A DNA stretch of 64,000 nt from assembly GCF_000472925.1 (NCBI RefSeq), contig NZ_AXAS01000002.1, positions 62,001 through 126,000 of the forward strand, given 5' to 3'. The notes beneath the pieces are model-generated. The model saw only the letters and a list, made by a program, of their open reading frames with translations, searched no databases and was not told the DNA's origin. This document shows, in pieces, positions 13,509 through 23,773 of this stretch; positions within the stretch are counted from its first letter, which is position 1; the number at the start of each line of letters is the position of its first letter. The position numbers and the translations under genes were made by a program. The DNA is from Bradyrhizobium sp. Ec3.3 (GTDB lineage: Bacteria > Pseudomonadota > Alphaproteobacteria > Rhizobiales > Xanthobacteraceae).

Positions 13509-13646
13509 CTCCAACCCGCGCTGCACTGCGAACGCGGTATGACCCTATCCGCCACAATGGCATTGACATGATGACAACGGCCATCAGCGCGCGATTTGAC
13601 AGTCCCGCGCGTCGCGGGCAACTCTTGCTCGTTTCGAGAATCACTG

Positions 13647-15107
13647 ATGTCTCACGCCGAGTATGCTCCCAAACAGCTCCCAGTCCTCACGAGACTGGCG
13701 ATAGCGCTGCGCCGGATCCCGGCGGTTGAATTTGCATTCGCGAAGTTCAAGTCGCTGCTGCGCGGCCGAAAGAACGACGAACCGGTTGTCAGCGAGTTTC
13801 AGGCTCCGGCTGCGGACGTCACGAAGGACGATGGCGCGCCCGGCTCGGTCGAGGCGGAAGCGGTTGAACCCGACGCCGTGCAGGCGGCTTCCGATGGAAC
13901 CGCGACCGCTGCGGCCGAGCCCGCCGAGACTGACGCTGTCGAAGCTCGGGAGATCGAGGCTCCCGCGACTGATGTCGCTGAGAGCGCAACCGCGGAGGCT
14001 GGCGCTTCCGAGATCAATGCAGATGAGCCGGCCACGACAAGCGTATGCGATGTCGTCTCCCCTGCAATGGCGTCCGACGATCTCTCCCAGAGTGAGATCG
14101 AGACCGTTGAAAGCGACGATCTCCCCGTTGAGGCCGAGATAGTTGAAATCGAGTCTCCTCAGACGCCCCTTGCCGCAAGCGCCGAGGCTGGGAAGATGGA
14201 GGCTCCTGCGACTGACGTCGCTGAGACCGCAACCGCGGAGGCTGACATCGCGGCGATCGACGCAGATGAGTCGGTCACGACTAGCGTATGCGATGTTGCC
14301 CCCCCTGCAATGGCGTCCGACGACCTCTCCCAGAGTGAGATCGAGGCCGTTGAAAGCGATGATCTCCCCGTTGAGGCCGCGACAGCTGAAATCGAGTCTG
14401 CTCAGACGCCTCTTGTCGCAATCGCCGAGGCCGGCGCGGCTGAGGCCGAGAAAGTCGAAACCGTCGCGCGTGACGCCGACGACGTTGCGGCTCATGTCGC
14501 GCCATCAGGGGATTCATCCGAGGCCGTTGTTGCCGAGACCGATGTTCTCCCGCTCGCTTGCGCCGAGACGGATATGATCGAGGTCGACGCAATTGAGACG
14601 GCGCCTTTTGAAATCAAGACCGAGAGCGAGGCCGCTCAGCCCGATGCGATTGACCCCGAGGCGGTCGAGACTGCTCCCCCTCTCATCGAAACCTTCGAGA
14701 CCGGTGCGGTTGATCCCGATGCCGCGGAGACTTTCGCAGCCATCGCTGTCGAGGCCGACGTGGTCGAGGTCGAGCTCGTCGAGGCCGACACCATCGAAAC
14801 GGCCCCAGTCGAGGCGGTCACCGCCAAAGCCGACATCGCCCCGGCCGCCGTCGCGAAATCCGACGATCTCTGTGATCGCGAGACGCTTATTCGCCGGCGC
14901 TGGAAGGAGACCGGAAGCAGGATGTGGCATGGCGCCGGGCAGTCCGTGCTGTGCATTCAAGGTCGCATCGCCCTGCTGCCGCCGAAGCCTGGCGAGACGA
15001 TGCCGGGCTACGACAGGCTAGAGTTCAGGCTGATCGACGGCCTCATCGTCTGCGAAGGGTTTGTCGTCGATCCGCCGGAACCGGCGAGACCTAGCCAGTT
15101 CGTGTAA
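13647..15107 (+). CDS. Acidic repeat protein with conserved-looking C-terminal domain
   Basis: 486 residues, start ATG at 13647 (MSHAEYAPK); an in-frame start 17 codons upstream is less likely. The N-terminal ~45 residues are basic (KFKSLLRGRKN). Residues about 60-405 are almost entirely Ala, Glu, Asp, Val, Thr and Ser and contain a tandem 81-residue duplication (DNA 13956-14198 and 14199-14441). The last ~80 residues (LCDRETLIRRRWKETG to the end) have normal composition and could be a folded domain. No signal peptide or membrane segment. The acidic region is probably disordered. Function unknown; charge scaffolding or metal/histone-like binding are only guesses. Confidence 0.8.
   Translation: MSHAEYAPKQLPVLTRLAIALRRIPAVEFAFAKFKSLLRGRKNDEPVVSEFQAPAADVTKDDGAPGSVEAEAVEPDAVQAASDGTATAAAEPAETDAVEAREIEAPATDVAESATAEAGASEINADEPATTSVCDVVSPAMASDDLSQSEIETVESDDLPVEAEIVEIESPQTPLAASAEAGKMEAPATDVAETATAEADIAAIDADESVTTSVCDVAPPAMASDDLSQSEIEAVESDDLPVEAATAEIESAQTPLVAIAEAGAAEAEKVETVARDADDVAAHVAPSGDSSEAVVAETDVLPLACAETDMIEVDAIETAPFEIKTESEAAQPDAIDPEAVETAPPLIETFETGAVDPDAAETFAAIAVEADVVEVELVEADTIETAPVEAVTAKADIAPAAVAKSDDLCDRETLIRRRWKETGSRMWHGAGQSVLCIQGRIALLPPKPGETMPGYDRLEFRLIDGLIVCEGFVVDPPEPARPSQFV
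13956..14441 (+). repeat. Tandem 243-bp coding duplication
   Basis: Two consecutive in-frame copies with a 243-bp period start at GAGGCTCC (13956 and 14199). Segments such as PAMASDDLSQSEIE and VESDDLPVEA are repeated with few changes, and silent differences are scattered between the copies, so the duplication is not brand new. Confidence 0.85.
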
Positions 15108-15113
15108 GGTCGC

Positions 15114-15848
15114 TCACTCCGGCGGATTGAACGTGCGGACGAAATACACCGGCTCCCTGCCCTTCTTCAGGCGATAGAGCTGCGCCGGCCGGTTCGGGCC
15201 GCGCCGCATCTTGGCGATCGGCTCGATCATGTCGGCTGAGAGAATCCGCGTGCGGAAGGCGCTCTTTTCCAAGGGACGGTCGAGCACGATCTCGTAGACC
15301 CGCTGGAGATCGGGCAGCGTGAATTCCGCCGGCATCAGGTAGGCCGGCAGCGAAGTGTATTCGACCTTGTTGCGCAGGCGCTCGACTGCAGCAGTGAGGA
15401 TCTCGCCGTGGTCGAAGGCGAGCTTCGGCTTGATCTTGCCCGCGACGACTGGAAACCATTGCGCGTCAGGTGCGAGCGCGGCCCGGCCCGCCTCCTCCGG
15501 CATCAGCGCGAAATAGGCGTGCGTCGCCGACCAGCCGCGCGGGTCGCGTCCAGCACTGCCCCAGCTTCCGAGCTGCTCGAGATAGGGGCTGGTCACGCCG
15601 GTCTTCTCCTTCAGCTTGCGCACCGCGCAGGCCTCGAGATCGCGGTCTTTGGCGACATCGACGAAGCCGCCCGGCAGCGCGAAGGCGAGCGGGAACGGCT
15701 CGCCAGCGCCGGCCGGCCGCTGCACCAGGAGGACGTGCAGGCCCTCGTTCCGGATCGCAAAGATCACCACGTCGACCGTGGCCAGCGGCCGCGGGAAATC
15801 CAATTGTCCCGAATTCTCAGTGCCTTGGGCTTGATCTTTCTGCGCCAT
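15114..15848 (-). CDS. NUDIX-related transcriptional regulator (NrtR-like)
   Basis: 244 residues: a NUDIX-fold domain (about 25-155) and a winged-helix C-terminal part (about 165-240, containing SAFRTRILS and RPAQLYRLKKG). The NUDIX box is degenerate: after PGGFVD the helix reads AVRKLKEKTGV, so the catalytic REXXEE glutamates are replaced by lysines. This favours ligand sensing over hydrolysis, as in NrtR regulators of NAD metabolism that bind ADP-ribose. It is divergent from an SPFH gene and a NAD-kinase-like gene, with two tandem palindromes between them. Start ATG at 15848 behind GGGAGG. Confidence 0.85.
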   Translation of the reverse strand: MAQKDQAQGTENSGQLDFPRPLATVDVVIFAIRNEGLHVLLVQRPAGAGEPFPLAFALPGGFVDVAKDRDLEACAVRKLKEKTGVTSPYLEQLGSWGSAGRDPRGWSATHAYFALMPEEAGRAALAPDAQWFPVVAGKIKPKLAFDHGEILTAAVERLRNKVEYTSLPAYLMPAEFTLPDLQRVYEIVLDRPLEKSAFRTRILSADMIEPIAKMRRGPNRPAQLYRLKKGREPVYFVRTFNPPE

Positions 15849-15886
15849 TGCGACCTCCCCTCTTTTGTCGCTTGACAGTAACCGAC

Positions 15887-15929
15887 TTAGTTGTACAGTG
15901 CAACTTACTTAGTTGCTCAGACCAACTTA
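15887..15929. promoter_or_regulatory. Two tandem 21-bp palindromes, predicted NrtR-type operators
   Basis: Site 1 (15887-15907) is TTAGTTG-tacagtg-CAACTTA. Site 2 (15909-15929) is TTAGTTG-ctcagac-CAACTTA. The arms are identical, the 7-bp spacers differ, and the repeat period is 22 bp, about two helical turns, so two dimers could bind one DNA face. They lie 13 nt upstream of the SPFH start and 38 nt from the NUDIX-regulator start. The conserved arms with unrelated spacers are what a protein-binding site looks like. Confidence 0.8.
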
Positions 15930-15942
15930 TTAGGAGAGGACC

Positions 15943-16989
15943 ATGTTCGGCGTCAGGTTCATCAAGGCCCAGCCCACCACCTATCTCATGAAGTACCGTG
16001 CCGGCGCCGTGGTCGCCGAAGGGGCGGGACTATCCGCGTTCTACTACGCGCCGGCCACCTCGCTCGTCGCCGTCCCCATCGGCAGCCGCGACGCCTCCTT
16101 CATCTTCCAGCAGATCGCGCGCGACTTTCAGACCCTGACCGTCCAGGGCCACGTCACCTATCGCGTCAGCGAGCCGAAGAAGGCGGCTTCGATGCTCGAC
16201 TTCACGCTGAAGAGCGACGGCAAGACCTATGAGACGGACGATCCGGAAAAGCTGCCGCAGCGCATCCTCGGCACCGTCGAGGTGCTGGCCCAGCAGGCGG
16301 TGAAGGAGCTGACGCTGAGAGAGGCGCTTCAGGCCTCCGACCGCATCGCCGACATCATCGCAGGTGGCTTGCGGGCCCGCGCCGACATCGCCTCCCTCGG
16401 CCTCGAAATCCTCGGCGTCTCCATCCGCGGCATCAAGCCGACGCCGGACACCGCCAAGGCACTGGAGGCCGAAGCGCGCGAAGCGATCCTGAAGAACGCC
16501 GACGAAGCGATCTTCGCCCGCCGCAATTTTGCGGTCGAGCAGGAGCGCGCCATCCGCGAGAGCGAGCTCGACACCGAGATCGCGGTCGAGCAGAAGAAGC
16601 GCTCGATCCGCGAGACGCAGATGGACGCGGAAGCCAGCGTCGCCGCCAAGAAGAACGAGCTGCGCCAGTCCGGCATGGTCGCGGACATCGCTCTCGAAGG
16701 CAAGCGCAAGGACTTCGTCGGGCTTAACGCCGAAAACACCCGCACGCTGGCCGATGCCGAAGCCTATCGCGTCGGTGCGCTGATGAAGATTTTCGAGGGC
16801 GTCGACACCCGCGTGATCCAGGCGCTCGCCTCTGCTGGCATGCAGCCGGGCCAGCTCATCGCGCAGGCCTTCACCGGCATTGCCGAGAAGGCGGAGAAGA
16901 TCGGCCAGCTCAACGTCTCGCCGGACCTGCTTAGCCAGTTGATGGAAAAGCCCAGGATGGCGGAGGCCGCCAATGCCCGCCGGCAATGA
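15943..16989 (+). CDS. SPFH/Band 7 domain protein
   Basis: 348 residues, start ATG at 15943 behind GGAGAGG. An N-terminal stomatin/prohibitin/flotillin-type domain covers about residues 1-180, followed by a highly charged coiled coil (about 180-265, with AVEQKKRSIRETQMDAEA) and a C-terminal flotillin-like tail containing MQPGQLIAQAF. There is no clear N-terminal transmembrane helix, so it probably associates peripherally or assembles into cytosolic rings. The next gene overlaps its end by 17 nt, indicating one transcript. Its link to a NAD-kinase-like enzyme is unusual. Confidence 0.88.
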   Translation: MFGVRFIKAQPTTYLMKYRAGAVVAEGAGLSAFYYAPATSLVAVPIGSRDASFIFQQIARDFQTLTVQGHVTYRVSEPKKAASMLDFTLKSDGKTYETDDPEKLPQRILGTVEVLAQQAVKELTLREALQASDRIADIIAGGLRARADIASLGLEILGVSIRGIKPTPDTAKALEAEAREAILKNADEAIFARRNFAVEQERAIRESELDTEIAVEQKKRSIRETQMDAEASVAAKKNELRQSGMVADIALEGKRKDFVGLNAENTRTLADAEAYRVGALMKIFEGVDTRVIQALASAGMQPGQLIAQAFTGIAEKAEKIGQLNVSPDLLSQLMEKPRMAEAANARRQ

Positions 16990-17908
16990 CCGCAAGATCG
17001 TGCTGGTGACGCGCAAGACCAGGCTGGAGGACCTGGTCGCGCGTTACCTGACCGCAGCGCAGGCGCGCTTCTATGTCGAGCATCTCGGCGCCGACTTCTC
17101 CGACTATGAGCGCGAGCACGAGGCCTATCGCGCGCAGCAGCACCTCGCTTTGCAAGTGCTGGAGCAATGGGGCCGCTACCAGGTGATCGAGCGCAGCTTT
17201 TTGCCGAACTTCATCTTTGCGCCCTCCGACATCGTGGTCGCGCTCGGCCAGGACGGCGTCGTCGCCAACACCATGAAATATCTCGATGGTCATCCGCTGA
17301 TCGGGCTCAACCCGGACCCGGCGCGCTACGACGGCATCCTCCTGCCCTTTGCGCCGCGCGACCTCGCAAAGCTCCTGCCAGAGGTCGCTGCCGACAAGCG
17401 CGACAGCCAGGCGGTGACGATGGCAGAGGCGCGTCTCTCCGACGGCCAGGTCCTCCATGCCGTGAACGACCTCTTCATTGGTGCCCGCACGCACACCTCC
17501 GCGATCTACGAGATTGCGACCGGCGAGACGAAGGAGCGGCAATCCTCGAGCGGGCTGATCGTCTCGACCGGGCTCGGCTCGACGGCCTGGTTCAAGAGCA
17601 TCGTCACCGGCTCGCTCGCGATCGCAGGACAGTTCGGCCAGCCTTCAGAACCTGTGGCTTACGGCGCCCTGCCCTGGGACGCGCCGGAGCTGCGCTTTGC
17701 CGTGCGCGAGCCCTTCCCCAGCCGCAACTCGCAAGTGGGTCTCGTCTGCGGCTCCCTCGCCTCCTCAGAACAACTGCGCATCCGCTCGCTGATGCCGGAA
17801 AACGGCGTCATCTTCAGCGACGGTATCGAAGCCGATCGGCTGGAGTTCAACGCCGGCGCAGAGGTCGCGATCGGGATTGCGGCGCGACGGGGACGGCTGA
17901 TCGTGTGA
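16973..17908 (+). CDS. NAD kinase-like protein
   Basis: 311 residues. The segment VVALGQDGVVANT matches the GGDG motif of NAD kinases with the second Gly changed to Gln but the key Asp kept. HPLIGLNPDP and SSGLIVSTGLGSTAWFKS correspond to the later NAD-binding motifs. The N-terminal ~70 residues are not typical of NadK. Such proteins are often labelled sugar kinase or ATP-NAD kinase-like. Whether it phosphorylates NAD or another metabolite is open. It overlaps the SPFH gene by 17 nt and shares its NrtR-type promoter, which supports a nucleotide-cofactor role. Confidence 0.82.
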   Translation: MPAGNDRKIVLVTRKTRLEDLVARYLTAAQARFYVEHLGADFSDYEREHEAYRAQQHLALQVLEQWGRYQVIERSFLPNFIFAPSDIVVALGQDGVVANTMKYLDGHPLIGLNPDPARYDGILLPFAPRDLAKLLPEVAADKRDSQAVTMAEARLSDGQVLHAVNDLFIGARTHTSAIYEIATGETKERQSSSGLIVSTGLGSTAWFKSIVTGSLAIAGQFGQPSEPVAYGALPWDAPELRFAVREPFPSRNSQVGLVCGSLASSEQLRIRSLMPENGVIFSDGIEADRLEFNAGAEVAIGIAARRGRLIV

Positions 17909-21109: not shown

Positions 21110-22007
21110 CCACTTTCTTCCAGGTCTGGTCCGGATTGAACAAGATCATGCGGCTGGCAATGCTTTCGGTGCGCGGACCGAGATCCTTCTGGTAGACGGT
21201 CCCGCCGTGATTGACCACGAAGGTCATGACGCCGGAATTGCCGTACTCGGCGGGATAGGCGACGAGCGCATAGCCGCCGATCATCTTGCCTTTGACGACA
21301 TAGTCGAGGCTGCCGCCGGCGGCGTTGGGACCCTGCCCCTTGAGGATCCTGAAATAGTAGCCGTGATAGGGCGCGCCCTGCCCGTCCACCTTGTAGCCCT
21401 CGCGCGAGGCTTCCGCCACAAATTCGCCGAGCGGGCTTGGGTCACTATCGTCGCGCCAGAACAGCCCATCCTTCTTGCCGGGCGTCGAGACGATGCGTTG
21501 CGCATAAACGCCGACGCCTTCGCCGCGGTCTTTCTCGGCGTAGTCGTTCTGGGCATCGACATAGGCGAGCGCGGCCTGGATCGCATCGAGCTCGTTGCGG
21601 CCGATGCGGCGATAGAGCACCTCGATCCGCCCCTGATCCACGTCGAATTCCCAGCCCGTCTTGGAGTTGACCAAAGGAATCGGGAACGGAAAATCGTCCG
21701 GGCCGAGCATCAGCGTGGCCTTCTTGTTGCCCTCCGCCTTGATCGCATGCTTGGCGTCGTACATCGACGTGAAGCGTTGACGAATGTCGGCGTCGGCAAC
21801 CTCGTCACCGGAGGAGACGATGTCGTCGGCGTTCCTGCCGAGCACTTTCAGGATATCGCTCGGTCCGCTCTTCACAGCCGCGGCGAGCGCTGCGGCTGCA
21901 TCCTCCGGAGTCGGATACGCTTGCTGCGCTTGCGATGGCAAGCTGAACAATGCGAGCGTCATGACGGCCGGCAAGGCCGCGCGTTGAAGCGCATTCAGAC
22001 CGATCAT
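21093..22007 (-). CDS. DUF2950 family periplasmic protein
   Basis: 304 residues, start ATG at 22007 behind GGAGGTGA. The ATGA overlap with the DUF3300 stop codon shows translational coupling. A signal peptide (ALFSLPSQAQQA) precedes a mature part with TPEDAAAALAAAV, then GYYFRILKGQGP and VTYPAEYGNSGVMTF-like strands typical of DUF2950. DUF3300 and DUF2950 genes commonly pair, as I recall. A periplasmic or surface role is likely; the biochemical function is unknown. Confidence 0.85.
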   Translation of the reverse strand: MIGLNALQRAALPAVMTLALFSLPSQAQQAYPTPEDAAAALAAAVKSGPSDILKVLGRNADDIVSSGDEVADADIRQRFTSMYDAKHAIKAEGNKKATLMLGPDDFPFPIPLVNSKTGWEFDVDQGRIEVLYRRIGRNELDAIQAALAYVDAQNDYAEKDRGEGVGVYAQRIVSTPGKKDGLFWRDDSDPSPLGEFVAEASREGYKVDGQGAPYHGYYFRILKGQGPNAAGGSLDYVVKGKMIGGYALVAYPAEYGNSGVMTFVVNHGGTVYQKDLGPRTESIASRMILFNPDQTWKKVDAAKQ

Positions 22008-23716
22008 GGCGTCACCTCCGCAGGGATTTTTGCGCCGCCGGCGAGCCAATCGCTGTACGTGCGGAATTTCAGACCGAGCTTTTCGTAGTAGACGCGCAAG
22101 TACCCGTCGTTGCCGCGGGTCACCGCGTCCGGCATCACGCTCTCGACCTCCTGCGCCATGACGCCGACATAGGCCTTATGGCTGCCGAGATAGCTGAAGC
22201 GGTAGTAGCCGAGGCCATTGGCGAGATGACCGAGCAGCACGATGTCGTGCTTCAGCGCGATGTCCGAACGTCGGCCACCGCCGCCACCGCGCCCGCCTCC
22301 ACCAAATCCGCCTCCTCCACCGCCGCGCATCGCCATTCCGCCACCACCGCCGCGCCCAGCGAAGCCACCGCCGCCGCCACGGGGCATGCTCGCCATGCTC
22401 GAGCGCCCGCGTGCCGATGCTGCGGCAGCCGCGCGCCCGGACGAGACGTTCATGGCGCCACCGCGATTGCCGCCACCGCCGCGGTTGACATTTGCGGCGC
22501 GATTGCCCGCGCTGGCGCCGCCGCGGTTGGCGGCCTTGGCGCGGTCGCCACCGCCCTTCGCGCCAGCGCGATCGCCGCCACCTTTGGCACGGTCCGCGCC
22601 GCCCTTGGCGCGATCGCCGGCGCCCGCGCGATCTCCACCACGATCACCTGCGCGATCGCCGCTGCGATCTCCCGCTCGATCGCCTGCGCGGTCCCCTGCA
22701 CGATCGCCCGCACGATCTCCTGCACGATCTCCGGCGCCTGGCCGATCCTGTCCGGGCTTCAGTACCTGCTGGCCATCGCGGCCGCGGAAATCCATCCGGT
22801 CGGCCGCGCCGGCCTTGATGTTGGTGTTGCCGAAGCGCTGCTGCACGTTCACGTTATTGTAGCGCACGCCCTGGCGATGCGCCGGATTGTGCTGCCAACC
22901 GTTTGCGATGTTGGTGGTCCGGTGATTGACGTAGACGTTGCGGTTGCCCCAGTTGCAGCCGCCGCCCCAGTAGTTGCCCCAGCGTCCGATCGCCCAGGCG
23001 GTACCGAAAGCGAGACCCGCCGCCACCACGCCTGCGCCGATATACGAAGGATATCCAAAGTAGTACGGCGGATATTCGGCGTAAGGCCACGCGCCGTAGA
23101 CGGTCGCCGGCTCGTAATAGGGCACGTACATCGTACCGGCCTCGGCCGGCTCGATGACGATCACCTGCTTGTTTTCCTGGGTCTGGACGCTGACCTTTTG
23201 CTGCTTGGTCGTGACCAACATCTTGTTGTCATAGGCCTTGTTGCGCAGGCGCTGGATCGCATCCATCACGTCAGGCTGCTGCGCGAGAAAGGCGTCGCCG
23301 AGGTTCTTGGTCCATTCGAGCTTGTCGCTCATCATGGTCAGGACATCGGCCGTGCTGGCGAGCGCCTTGACGCTGTCGTCCCAGGATTGCTTCTCGACCT
23401 CTGCCTTCAGCGCGTCGCCCTTGACGTTCTTGCGCTCCTTCAGCCAGCGATCGGCCTGCACGACCTCCAGCGGATATGTCGATGCCGCCAGCACGTTGGC
23501 GAGCAGCTCGTCCGGATAGAGCGCGATCGGCGCGACCAGCGCCTCGAGCTGCTCTGGCTTCAACAGCTCCGCGGCCGGCTGTGCCTGACTTGCTGGCGGC
23601 GCCTGACTTGCTGGCGGCGCCGACGTGCTCGGGGCGGCCGGGGTCTGCGCCGATGCGGCGACGGGCATCGCCATCATCAGCGCAAGCGCGATCAGGGTCT
23701 TGCCGCAGCGAAACAT
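22004..23716 (-). CDS. DUF3300 protein with RAGD repeats and S74-type chaperone domain
   Basis: 570 residues, start ATG at 23716 behind GGGAGGG; upstream in-frame sequence covers the promoter. Order: signal peptide (ALMMAMPVAASAQ), DUF3300 (about 50-230; IALYPDELLANVLAASTYP), a Gly/Tyr-rich stretch, about nine RAGD-type repeats (about 340-395), Gly/Arg-rich linkers, then a last ~86-residue domain. That domain starts RRSDIALKHDI and continues YVGVMAQEVESVMPDA, matching the Peptidase S74 intramolecular chaperone of phage tail fibres; the Ser and Lys of its cleavage dyad are retained. A FixK box lies 58 nt upstream. Self-cleavage is inferred, not shown. Confidence 0.85.
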   Translation of the reverse strand: MFRCGKTLIALALMMAMPVAASAQTPAAPSTSAPPASQAPPASQAQPAAELLKPEQLEALVAPIALYPDELLANVLAASTYPLEVVQADRWLKERKNVKGDALKAEVEKQSWDDSVKALASTADVLTMMSDKLEWTKNLGDAFLAQQPDVMDAIQRLRNKAYDNKMLVTTKQQKVSVQTQENKQVIVIEPAEAGTMYVPYYEPATVYGAWPYAEYPPYYFGYPSYIGAGVVAAGLAFGTAWAIGRWGNYWGGGCNWGNRNVYVNHRTTNIANGWQHNPAHRQGVRYNNVNVQQRFGNTNIKAGAADRMDFRGRDGQQVLKPGQDRPGAGDRAGDRAGDRAGDRAGDRAGDRSGDRAGDRGGDRAGAGDRAKGGADRAKGGGDRAGAKGGGDRAKAANRGGASAGNRAANVNRGGGGNRGGAMNVSSGRAAAAASARGRSSMASMPRGGGGGFAGRGGGGGMAMRGGGGGGFGGGGRGGGGGRRSDIALKHDIVLLGHLANGLGYYRFSYLGSHKAYVGVMAQEVESVMPDAVTRGNDGYLRVYYEKLGLKFRTYSDWLAGGAKIPAEVTP

Positions 23717-23773
23717 TGCACGCCCTCCCTTGGCATTTCGGCAGGGAGCATCGGGCCGGGACGAATGCGTTCT

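Follow-up and report, generated by a model that had tools for sequence, protein, structure and literature searches.

Organization of the locus

The 64,000-nt stretch of the Bradyrhizobium sp. Ec3.3 genome analyzed here (contig NZ_AXAS01000002.1, positions 62,001–126,000; hereafter the window, whose own numbering is used throughout) contains three adjoining genes, which encode an NrtR-type regulator, an SPFH/Band 7 protein, and a kinase resembling mitochondrial NADK2 (Table 1). The three open reading frames (ORFs) had been delimited in the same way by a sequence-only reading, i.e., an earlier annotation made from the DNA letters without database searches, and all three proved to be placed correctly. 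The 94-bp gap between nrtR and the SPFH gene holds a TTGACA and a TACAGT hexamer as well as two tandem 21-bp sites, the predicted operators of the regulator. Overlap of the SPFH and kinase frames is seen in 78 of 100 loci, and the closest named relative for the locus is Bradyrhizobium iriomotense, with protein identities of 96–97%.

Table 1. Genes and predicted regulatory elements of the nrtR–SPFH–kinase locus (window positions).
Feature	Position	Strand	Basis
nrtR-type regulator, 244 aa: degenerate Nudix domain and NrtR winged helix	15114..15848	-	PF00293 and PF21906 above cut-off; SoNrtR 2.1e-46
-35 hexamer TTGACA of the predicted SPFH–kinase promoter	15872..15877	+	consensus match
-10-like hexamer TACAGT, within operator 1	15894..15899	+	consensus match
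Predicted operator 1, 21-bp imperfect palindrome TTAGTTG-N7-CAACTTA	15887..15907	.	genome pattern count; conservation; matrix scan
Predicted operator 2, arms as operator 1, 22 bp downstream	15909..15929	.	genome pattern count; conservation; matrix scan
SPFH/Band 7 protein, 348 aa: SPFH domain, 117-residue helix (residues 168–284), conserved C-terminal tail	15943..16989	+	PF01145 4.6e-14; model; alignment
NADK2-type kinase, 311 aa	16973..17908	+	sequence and predicted fold; 17-bp overlap with SPFH gene

The regulator belongs to the NrtR family

The identity suggested by the sequence-only reading, a NUDIX-type winged-helix protein of the NrtR kind, is upheld by the match to NrtR_WHD (8.5e-22) and by the closest relative in PDB, SoNrtR (3gz5), which is 41% identical and aligned over residues 13–239. 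The NCBIfam equivalog model for the ADP-ribose-responsive repressor, NF050029, gives 218.7 bits with a cut-off of 400 bits, and judged by this score the regulator is a family relative of that equivalog and not the equivalog itself. The same reading regarded the catalytic glutamates of the Nudix box as lost, with RKLKEK standing for REXXEE. The loss is real and compares with LRKLAEK in SoNrtR, but it is no peculiarity of this protein, since passages of PMC4666351 describe an impaired Nudix box as the norm among NrtR regulators.

The residues with which SoNrtR holds ADP-ribose are also described in those passages. Across 92 NrtR sequences of the cassette, aligned with redundancy retained, the counterparts of Arg41, Arg98, and the pocket His are invariant (92/92 each) and that of Lys76 is kept in 88, with Glu in 4; Phe15 is matched by Phe in 73 and by Tyr or His in 11. 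Lys76 is the very lysine that had been taken as a lost Nudix glutamate. Because these residues are kept, and two of them are lacking in the arabinose-binding BtAraR, ADP-ribose appears to be the likeliest effector. The NrtR of locus L189 (9121–9786) has an intact REXXEE in its Nudix box (RELKEETG), and some cassette NrtRs, such as this one, may still hydrolyze ADP-ribose. The only other NrtR_WHD protein in the genome, a 334-aa ORF at L168 (G000:C65:78201-78383), is perhaps NadQ, which is treated in passages of PMC5343134 as an alphaproteobacterial regulator of nicotinamide adenine dinucleotide (NAD) metabolism.

Predicted tandem operators overlap the predicted promoter of the SPFH–kinase operon

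In the 10.03-Mb genome, exact matches to TTAGTTG-N7-CAACTTA are confined to the two adjoining sites of Table 1, and the reversed pattern used as a control has none. With up to three mismatches allowed, the pattern is not enriched genome-wide (48 + 55 matches versus 135 + 127 for the control), and on both counts regulation of other genes was rejected. The tandem 21-bp palindromes with a 22-bp period reported in the sequence-only reading are present, except that only six of the seven positions pair between the arms TTAGTTG and CAACTTA; likewise, the 7-bp spacers do differ between the two sites, although each of them is mostly conserved among Bradyrhizobium. TACAGT, 16 bp past TTGACA, is the sole promoter-like match in the intergenic stretch and is covered by operator 1. 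In 73 of 76 loci, a −35 hexamer (TTGACA, TTGACG, or TTGCAG) begins 15–17 bp ahead of operator 1, so the predicted operator stands, relative to this hexamer, where that of a repressor is expected.

Conservation was scored with a matrix trained on Bradyrhizobium only, from 34 distinct 21-mers that were picked for their TTAGTTG start and then symmetrized; it thus presupposes the arms and the 7-base spacer, and the complementarity counts of the sites lean the same way. After removal of L147, which is cut by a contig end, a site above the 99% shuffle threshold was found in all 31 divergent loci (L132–L163) and a second one above the 95% threshold in 30, and none of 55 control regions downstream of the kinase gene carried a site; the top shuffle score (14.05) exceeds those of some accepted sites, and lone weak sites are no proof. 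Seen through the same matrix, the distance between the sites is 22 bp in 56 of 81 loci, 23 in 18, and 25 in 3, with 24, 26, 36, and 47 found once each. Reading the repeat as a single central CAACT-N5-AGTTG palindrome was set aside, as varying site distance would break its frame. Inspection by eye revealed tandem sites upstream of the SPFH gene also in Ralstonia, Burkholderia, Thiobacillus, Gallionella, and others, and the arms change in concert, e.g., from AGTTG..CAACT to AGTGG..CCACT.

Sites with at most one mismatch were found in 12 of the 13 genomes scanned, always at the operon's own promoter save for one stray in G064; as a further target this stray was rejected, being adjacent to MarR-like and SDR genes and judged by eye to be the palindrome of another regulator. 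The operators and their overlap with the promoter tie NrtR to the SPFH–kinase operon, a predicted regulatory link that we regard as strong. The co-directional units L181–L185 and L187 carry, by eye, a different repeated element beside TTGAC upstream of nrtR (ATATCCAT ... TAAG type), and this ATATCCAT-type element probably serves the NrtRs of that branch as operator.

The kinase is nearest to mitochondrial NADK2 in sequence and predicted fold

Pfam gave no match for the window kinase at 0.001 and, for 43 kinases of the cassette, five weak NAD_kinase matches, the best at 0.012; RefSeq labels, among the matches listed, include "sugar kinase" on several plasmids and "ATP-NAD kinase PpnK-type" on one record. 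A sequence search of PDB puts human mitochondrial NADK2, a proven NAD(H) kinase, in first place (2.6e-9), and by profile it scores 53.6 bits against at most 19 bits for other NAD kinases. As a reverse control, 14 canonical NAD kinases from relatives were made into a profile, which scored many NAD kinases at 39–79 bits and NADK2 at 14.6. NAD kinases are also the best matches of the predicted model (pLDDT, the predicted local distance difference test, 91.1; pTM, the predicted template modeling score, 0.86): the first seven matches in Foldseek are NADK2, and all of the best 50 matches listed in VIA are NAD kinases, with Z of 25.1–26.2 for NADK2 (best match: root-mean-square deviation (rmsd) 3.2, 280 aligned, 24% identity) versus 22.7 for the best of the others (2.9, 245).

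Asp94, Asn165, Thr199, and Trp206 are invariant in the 43 kinases, and Asp166 is Asp in 41 and Glu in 2; the short NE/D motif is present (ND in 41, NE in 2), and the Thr of region II is kept. An ordinary NAD kinase as the nearest kin was rejected on the NADK2 profile score, the reverse profile control, and the unshared motif set. On sequence and model together, the kinase is nearest to NADK2 and not to the housekeeping NAD kinase, and the third protein, which the sequence-only reading had called NAD-kinase-like, does have an NAD-kinase fold, of the mitochondrial NADK2 type. Elsewhere, the genome also encodes a canonical NAD kinase, which exceeds the Pfam cut-off; bacteria are usually credited with a single NAD kinase, according to a figure legend of PMC8553519.

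The SPFH protein

The SPFH protein matches Band_7 (PF01145) with 53.3 bits (cut-off 23.6). Its model (pLDDT 80.4, pTM 0.49) has a long helix and a tail, residues 299–331, that is poorly predicted yet conserved, and Foldseek matches it with HflK/C, QmcA, stomatin, erlin, flotillin, prohibitin, and vault; rmsd over the full length is large, and only the domain match is trustworthy. The vault matches, which are to the major vault protein and include entries with ADP-ribose and with PARP4, probably reflect just the common SPFH-like fold.

Linkage and distribution of the three genes

Linkage was assessed in 80 related loci and in a second set of 38, drawn from samples of the family, the order, and the phylum. 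In the former, SPFH and kinase were matched in 80/80 and NrtR in 77/80, always adjoining; L165 and L166 lack NrtR, and L147 is the truncated locus. Both the palindromes, which have sites in 31 of 31 other divergent loci, and the gene trio are kept in relatives, the point on which the sequence-only reading had staked itself. In the latter sample, SPFH adjoins the kinase in 38/38, and for 28 of these loci NrtR is no more than 4 kb away; of the ten misses, three (L206, L207, and L215) are at contig ends. NrtR is divergent from SPFH in 84 loci, co-directional (nrtR–SPFH–kinase) in 9, and far in 1, and since the order varies, the linkage outlives rearrangement. When ORFs of 41 loci were clustered, the trio families recurred in 40, 40, and 38 other loci and the next real neighbor in 7, the other large clusters being other-frame ORFs of the trio genes, and flanking genes are not common to the loci.

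The trio is found across alpha-, beta-, and gammaproteobacteria, and Bradyrhizobium sp. BTAi1 (L128) is among the strains that have the unit. Frequencies are 52 of 195 genus genomes (5 with fragments only), 31 of 397 of the order, and 12 of 398 of the phylum, samples that partly overlap. The family sample has a genuine kinase orthologue in 5 of 149 genomes, after matches with E of 1e-6 to 1e-3 had been taken as canonical NAD kinases and dropped. Kinase gene fragments (G152, G212, G252, G330, and G334; also second copies in G189 and G196) are seemingly remnants of lost copies. In a kinase tree (n = 62), in which long branches are flagged and many forks are open, Bradyrhizobium stands among beta- and gammaproteobacterial sequences, with L171 and L172, from two genomes of its family, placed elsewhere; this suggests transfer between lineages. 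Matches were found in 69 plasmid records, 57 of them covering at least 80% of the protein, and in none of the phage records searched. The three-gene unit is probably self-contained and has probably spread between lineages.

Other genes in and around the loci vary. The Methylopila-like loci L173, L174, and L175 have no NrtR, and their SPFH–kinase pair follows an operon with the ATPase and permeases of an ABC transporter, as judged by eye; in L205 the pair stands behind a channel-like gene; inspection by eye of the NrtR-less loci revealed no common gene that could be an alternative regulator. In the window, an ORF at 13596–15107 (503 aa) is Ala/Glu/Asp-rich with repeated stretches and has no Pfam family, and another, at 22007–23719, encodes a DUF3300 protein that is of low complexity in its middle and has a Peptidase_S74 (endosialidase chaperone) domain at the C terminus.

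Discussion

We consider it fairly probable that the three genes form a unit in which ADP-ribose relieves NrtR repression of an SPFH protein and an NADK2-type NAD(H) kinase. NrtR dimers would occupy the two tandem operators overlapping the SPFH–kinase promoter and keep the operon off; the operators also fill the short gap to nrtR, itself a probable target, and their spacing of 22–23 bp, two helical turns, would place them on the same face. When NAD+ is cleaved, ADP-ribose would rise, bind the degenerate Nudix pocket, and release NrtR, and the overlapping gene pair, once derepressed, would yield the SPFH protein together with an accessory kinase for NAD(H). The kinase would convert NAD(H) into the phosphorylated forms, NADP(H), and would probably do so while associated with an SPFH assembly.

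Several observations weigh against this reading, among them some on the operators. The matrix scan found the operator type missing upstream of SPFH in all four loci L164–L167, and among L170–L189 it found sites in 5 of 20, the other 15 being below threshold. As to whether the palindromes exceed chance, a generic test of each locus against shuffled sequence, at a set period of 22, reached p ≤ 0.01 for 17 of the 44 Bradyrhizobium loci and for 4 of the 35 others, a weak result for which the 23-bp period of many betaproteobacteria is partly responsible. Moreover, SPFH–kinase pairs occur without a nearby NrtR in 7 of the 38 further loci, clear of contig ends, besides L165 and L166, so that the pair can do without the regulator. 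Such loci, and the fact that operator binding by NrtR is a prediction, would agree with the palindromes serving another regulator with NrtR as a bystander, but this is very improbable: the operator type is present in 31 of 31 divergent NrtR loci (L132–L163), is not found in the two nearest named NrtR-less loci, L165 and L166, and changes in sequence along with the more distant NrtRs. For the SPFH protein, the membrane location that we infer has against it that no clear transmembrane segment was found, the maximal mean hydropathy over 19 residues being 1.25, with values of at least 1.6 in 7 of 99 homologues.

The signal and the substrate might also be others. The same circuit could sense NAD+, NADP, or another nucleotide and serve the NAD/NADP balance rather than a response to cleavage; passages of PMC6800001 report that DNA binding by the NrtR homologue of Corynebacterium glutamicum is improved by NAD+, BtAraR of the same family binds arabinose according to passages of PMC4666351, and the contacts that SoNrtR makes through Tyr10 and Asn43 are not conserved in the cassette NrtRs, which also counts against ADP-ribose itself. 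Such a signal nevertheless seems unlikely, since the counterparts of the phosphate-holding Arg41, Lys76, and Arg98 are near-invariant and BtAraR lacks two of them. A further point against our reading is that GGDG, described in passages of PMC8553519 as a motif of all NAD kinases and common to diacylglycerol kinases too, is replaced by GQDG in 40 of the 43 kinases and by GPDG in the other three, with the catalytic Asp kept in all. This replacement, the lack of a Pfam NAD-kinase match for the window protein, and a partner of the membrane-scaffold type would fit a kinase that acts on another nucleotide or a membrane lipid, to which the SPFH protein recruits it. That, too, appears improbable, given that the 50 VIA matches listed are all NAD kinases with NADK2 nearest, that the regulator is from an NAD-linked family, and that human NADK2-type and other ATP/poly(P) enzymes are reported, in passages of PMC8553519, not to phosphorylate ADP-ribose. 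Another possibility, which we hold to be quite unlikely, is a conflict or stress cassette, in which SPFH protein and kinase act once toxins or anti-phage NADases have depleted NAD+, and ADP-ribose is the alarm. The patchy distribution, the diverse neighbors, the plasmid copies, and a regulator of the ADP-ribose-sensing type agree with it, but none of the three proteins has a match in PADLOC, no phage record was matched, and the recurring neighbors include no defence family; a defence system as such was rejected on the lack of PADLOC matches and phage records.

The unit resembles several known systems in part. SoNrtR of Shewanella oneidensis (3gz5, 3gz6, and 3gz8) shares the Nudix-like domain with winged helix, the broken Nudix box, and the charged ADP-ribose contacts, whereas the only targets found for the window NrtR are the neighboring SPFH–kinase operon and, probably, nrtR, through two tandem operators. 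BtAraR of Bacteroides is, like the window protein, a member recruited outside NAD biosynthesis, with tandem sites for araM orthologues (passages of PMC4666351), but it binds arabinose and lacks the counterparts of Lys76 and Arg98 that the window NrtR keeps. Human NADK2, the closest solved relative of the kinase by sequence and fold, has similar stretches (IGxNxDPxR, NxxFIG, SSG..xxTGxGSxAW, and REP), while the window kinase is bacterial, is 24% identical to it in the structural alignment, has GQDG for GGDG, and shares an operon with SPFH; canonical bacterial NAD kinases (PF01513 and PF20143) have the same fold (hhalign probability 96.5 over 155 columns), but the window kinase lacks their motif set. 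With HflK/C, stomatin, flotillin, and prohibitin, the SPFH protein has the Band_7 domain and the long helix in common, and it differs in the absence of a clear transmembrane helix, in its own conserved tail, and in its kinase partner.

NrtR regulators are of a known kind and control NAD synthesis and salvage, and a local NrtR unit with SPFH and an NADK2-type kinase was not met with in the literature searched. In agreement with the sequence-only reading, which held an SPFH protein in an NrtR regulon to be undescribed, no account of such a unit was found, the founding NrtR papers (Rodionov 2008 and Huang 2009) being outside the coverage of the search, so that an earlier mention is possible. No paper found combines "SPFH" with "NAD kinase," those with "SPFH" and "Nudix" are irrelevant by title and abstract, and the main text of the SPFH surveys PMC2636767 and PMC13086221 contains neither "NAD" nor "Nudix."

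A bolder reading, tentative and rather unlikely in our estimate, makes the cassette a transferable ADP-ribose-triggered module that refills the NADP pool on an SPFH platform, with its kinase in the prokaryotic lineage from or beside which the mito-clade NADK2 arose. The eukaryotic "mito-clade" NADK is of unknown provenance according to passages of PMC6675116, and the comparison, made on reciprocal profile scores and fold, favors a possible common descent with NADK2 apart from the canonical NAD kinases.

The kinase, of the mitochondrial type and probably accessory, is widespread and stays beside NrtR and SPFH through repeated changes of gene order. If the proposed circuit is true, one small unit would connect NAD breakdown, NADP making, and SPFH scaffolds, SPFH proteins would gain a metabolic partner, and bacterial sequences would become available to address the origin of mitochondrial NADK.

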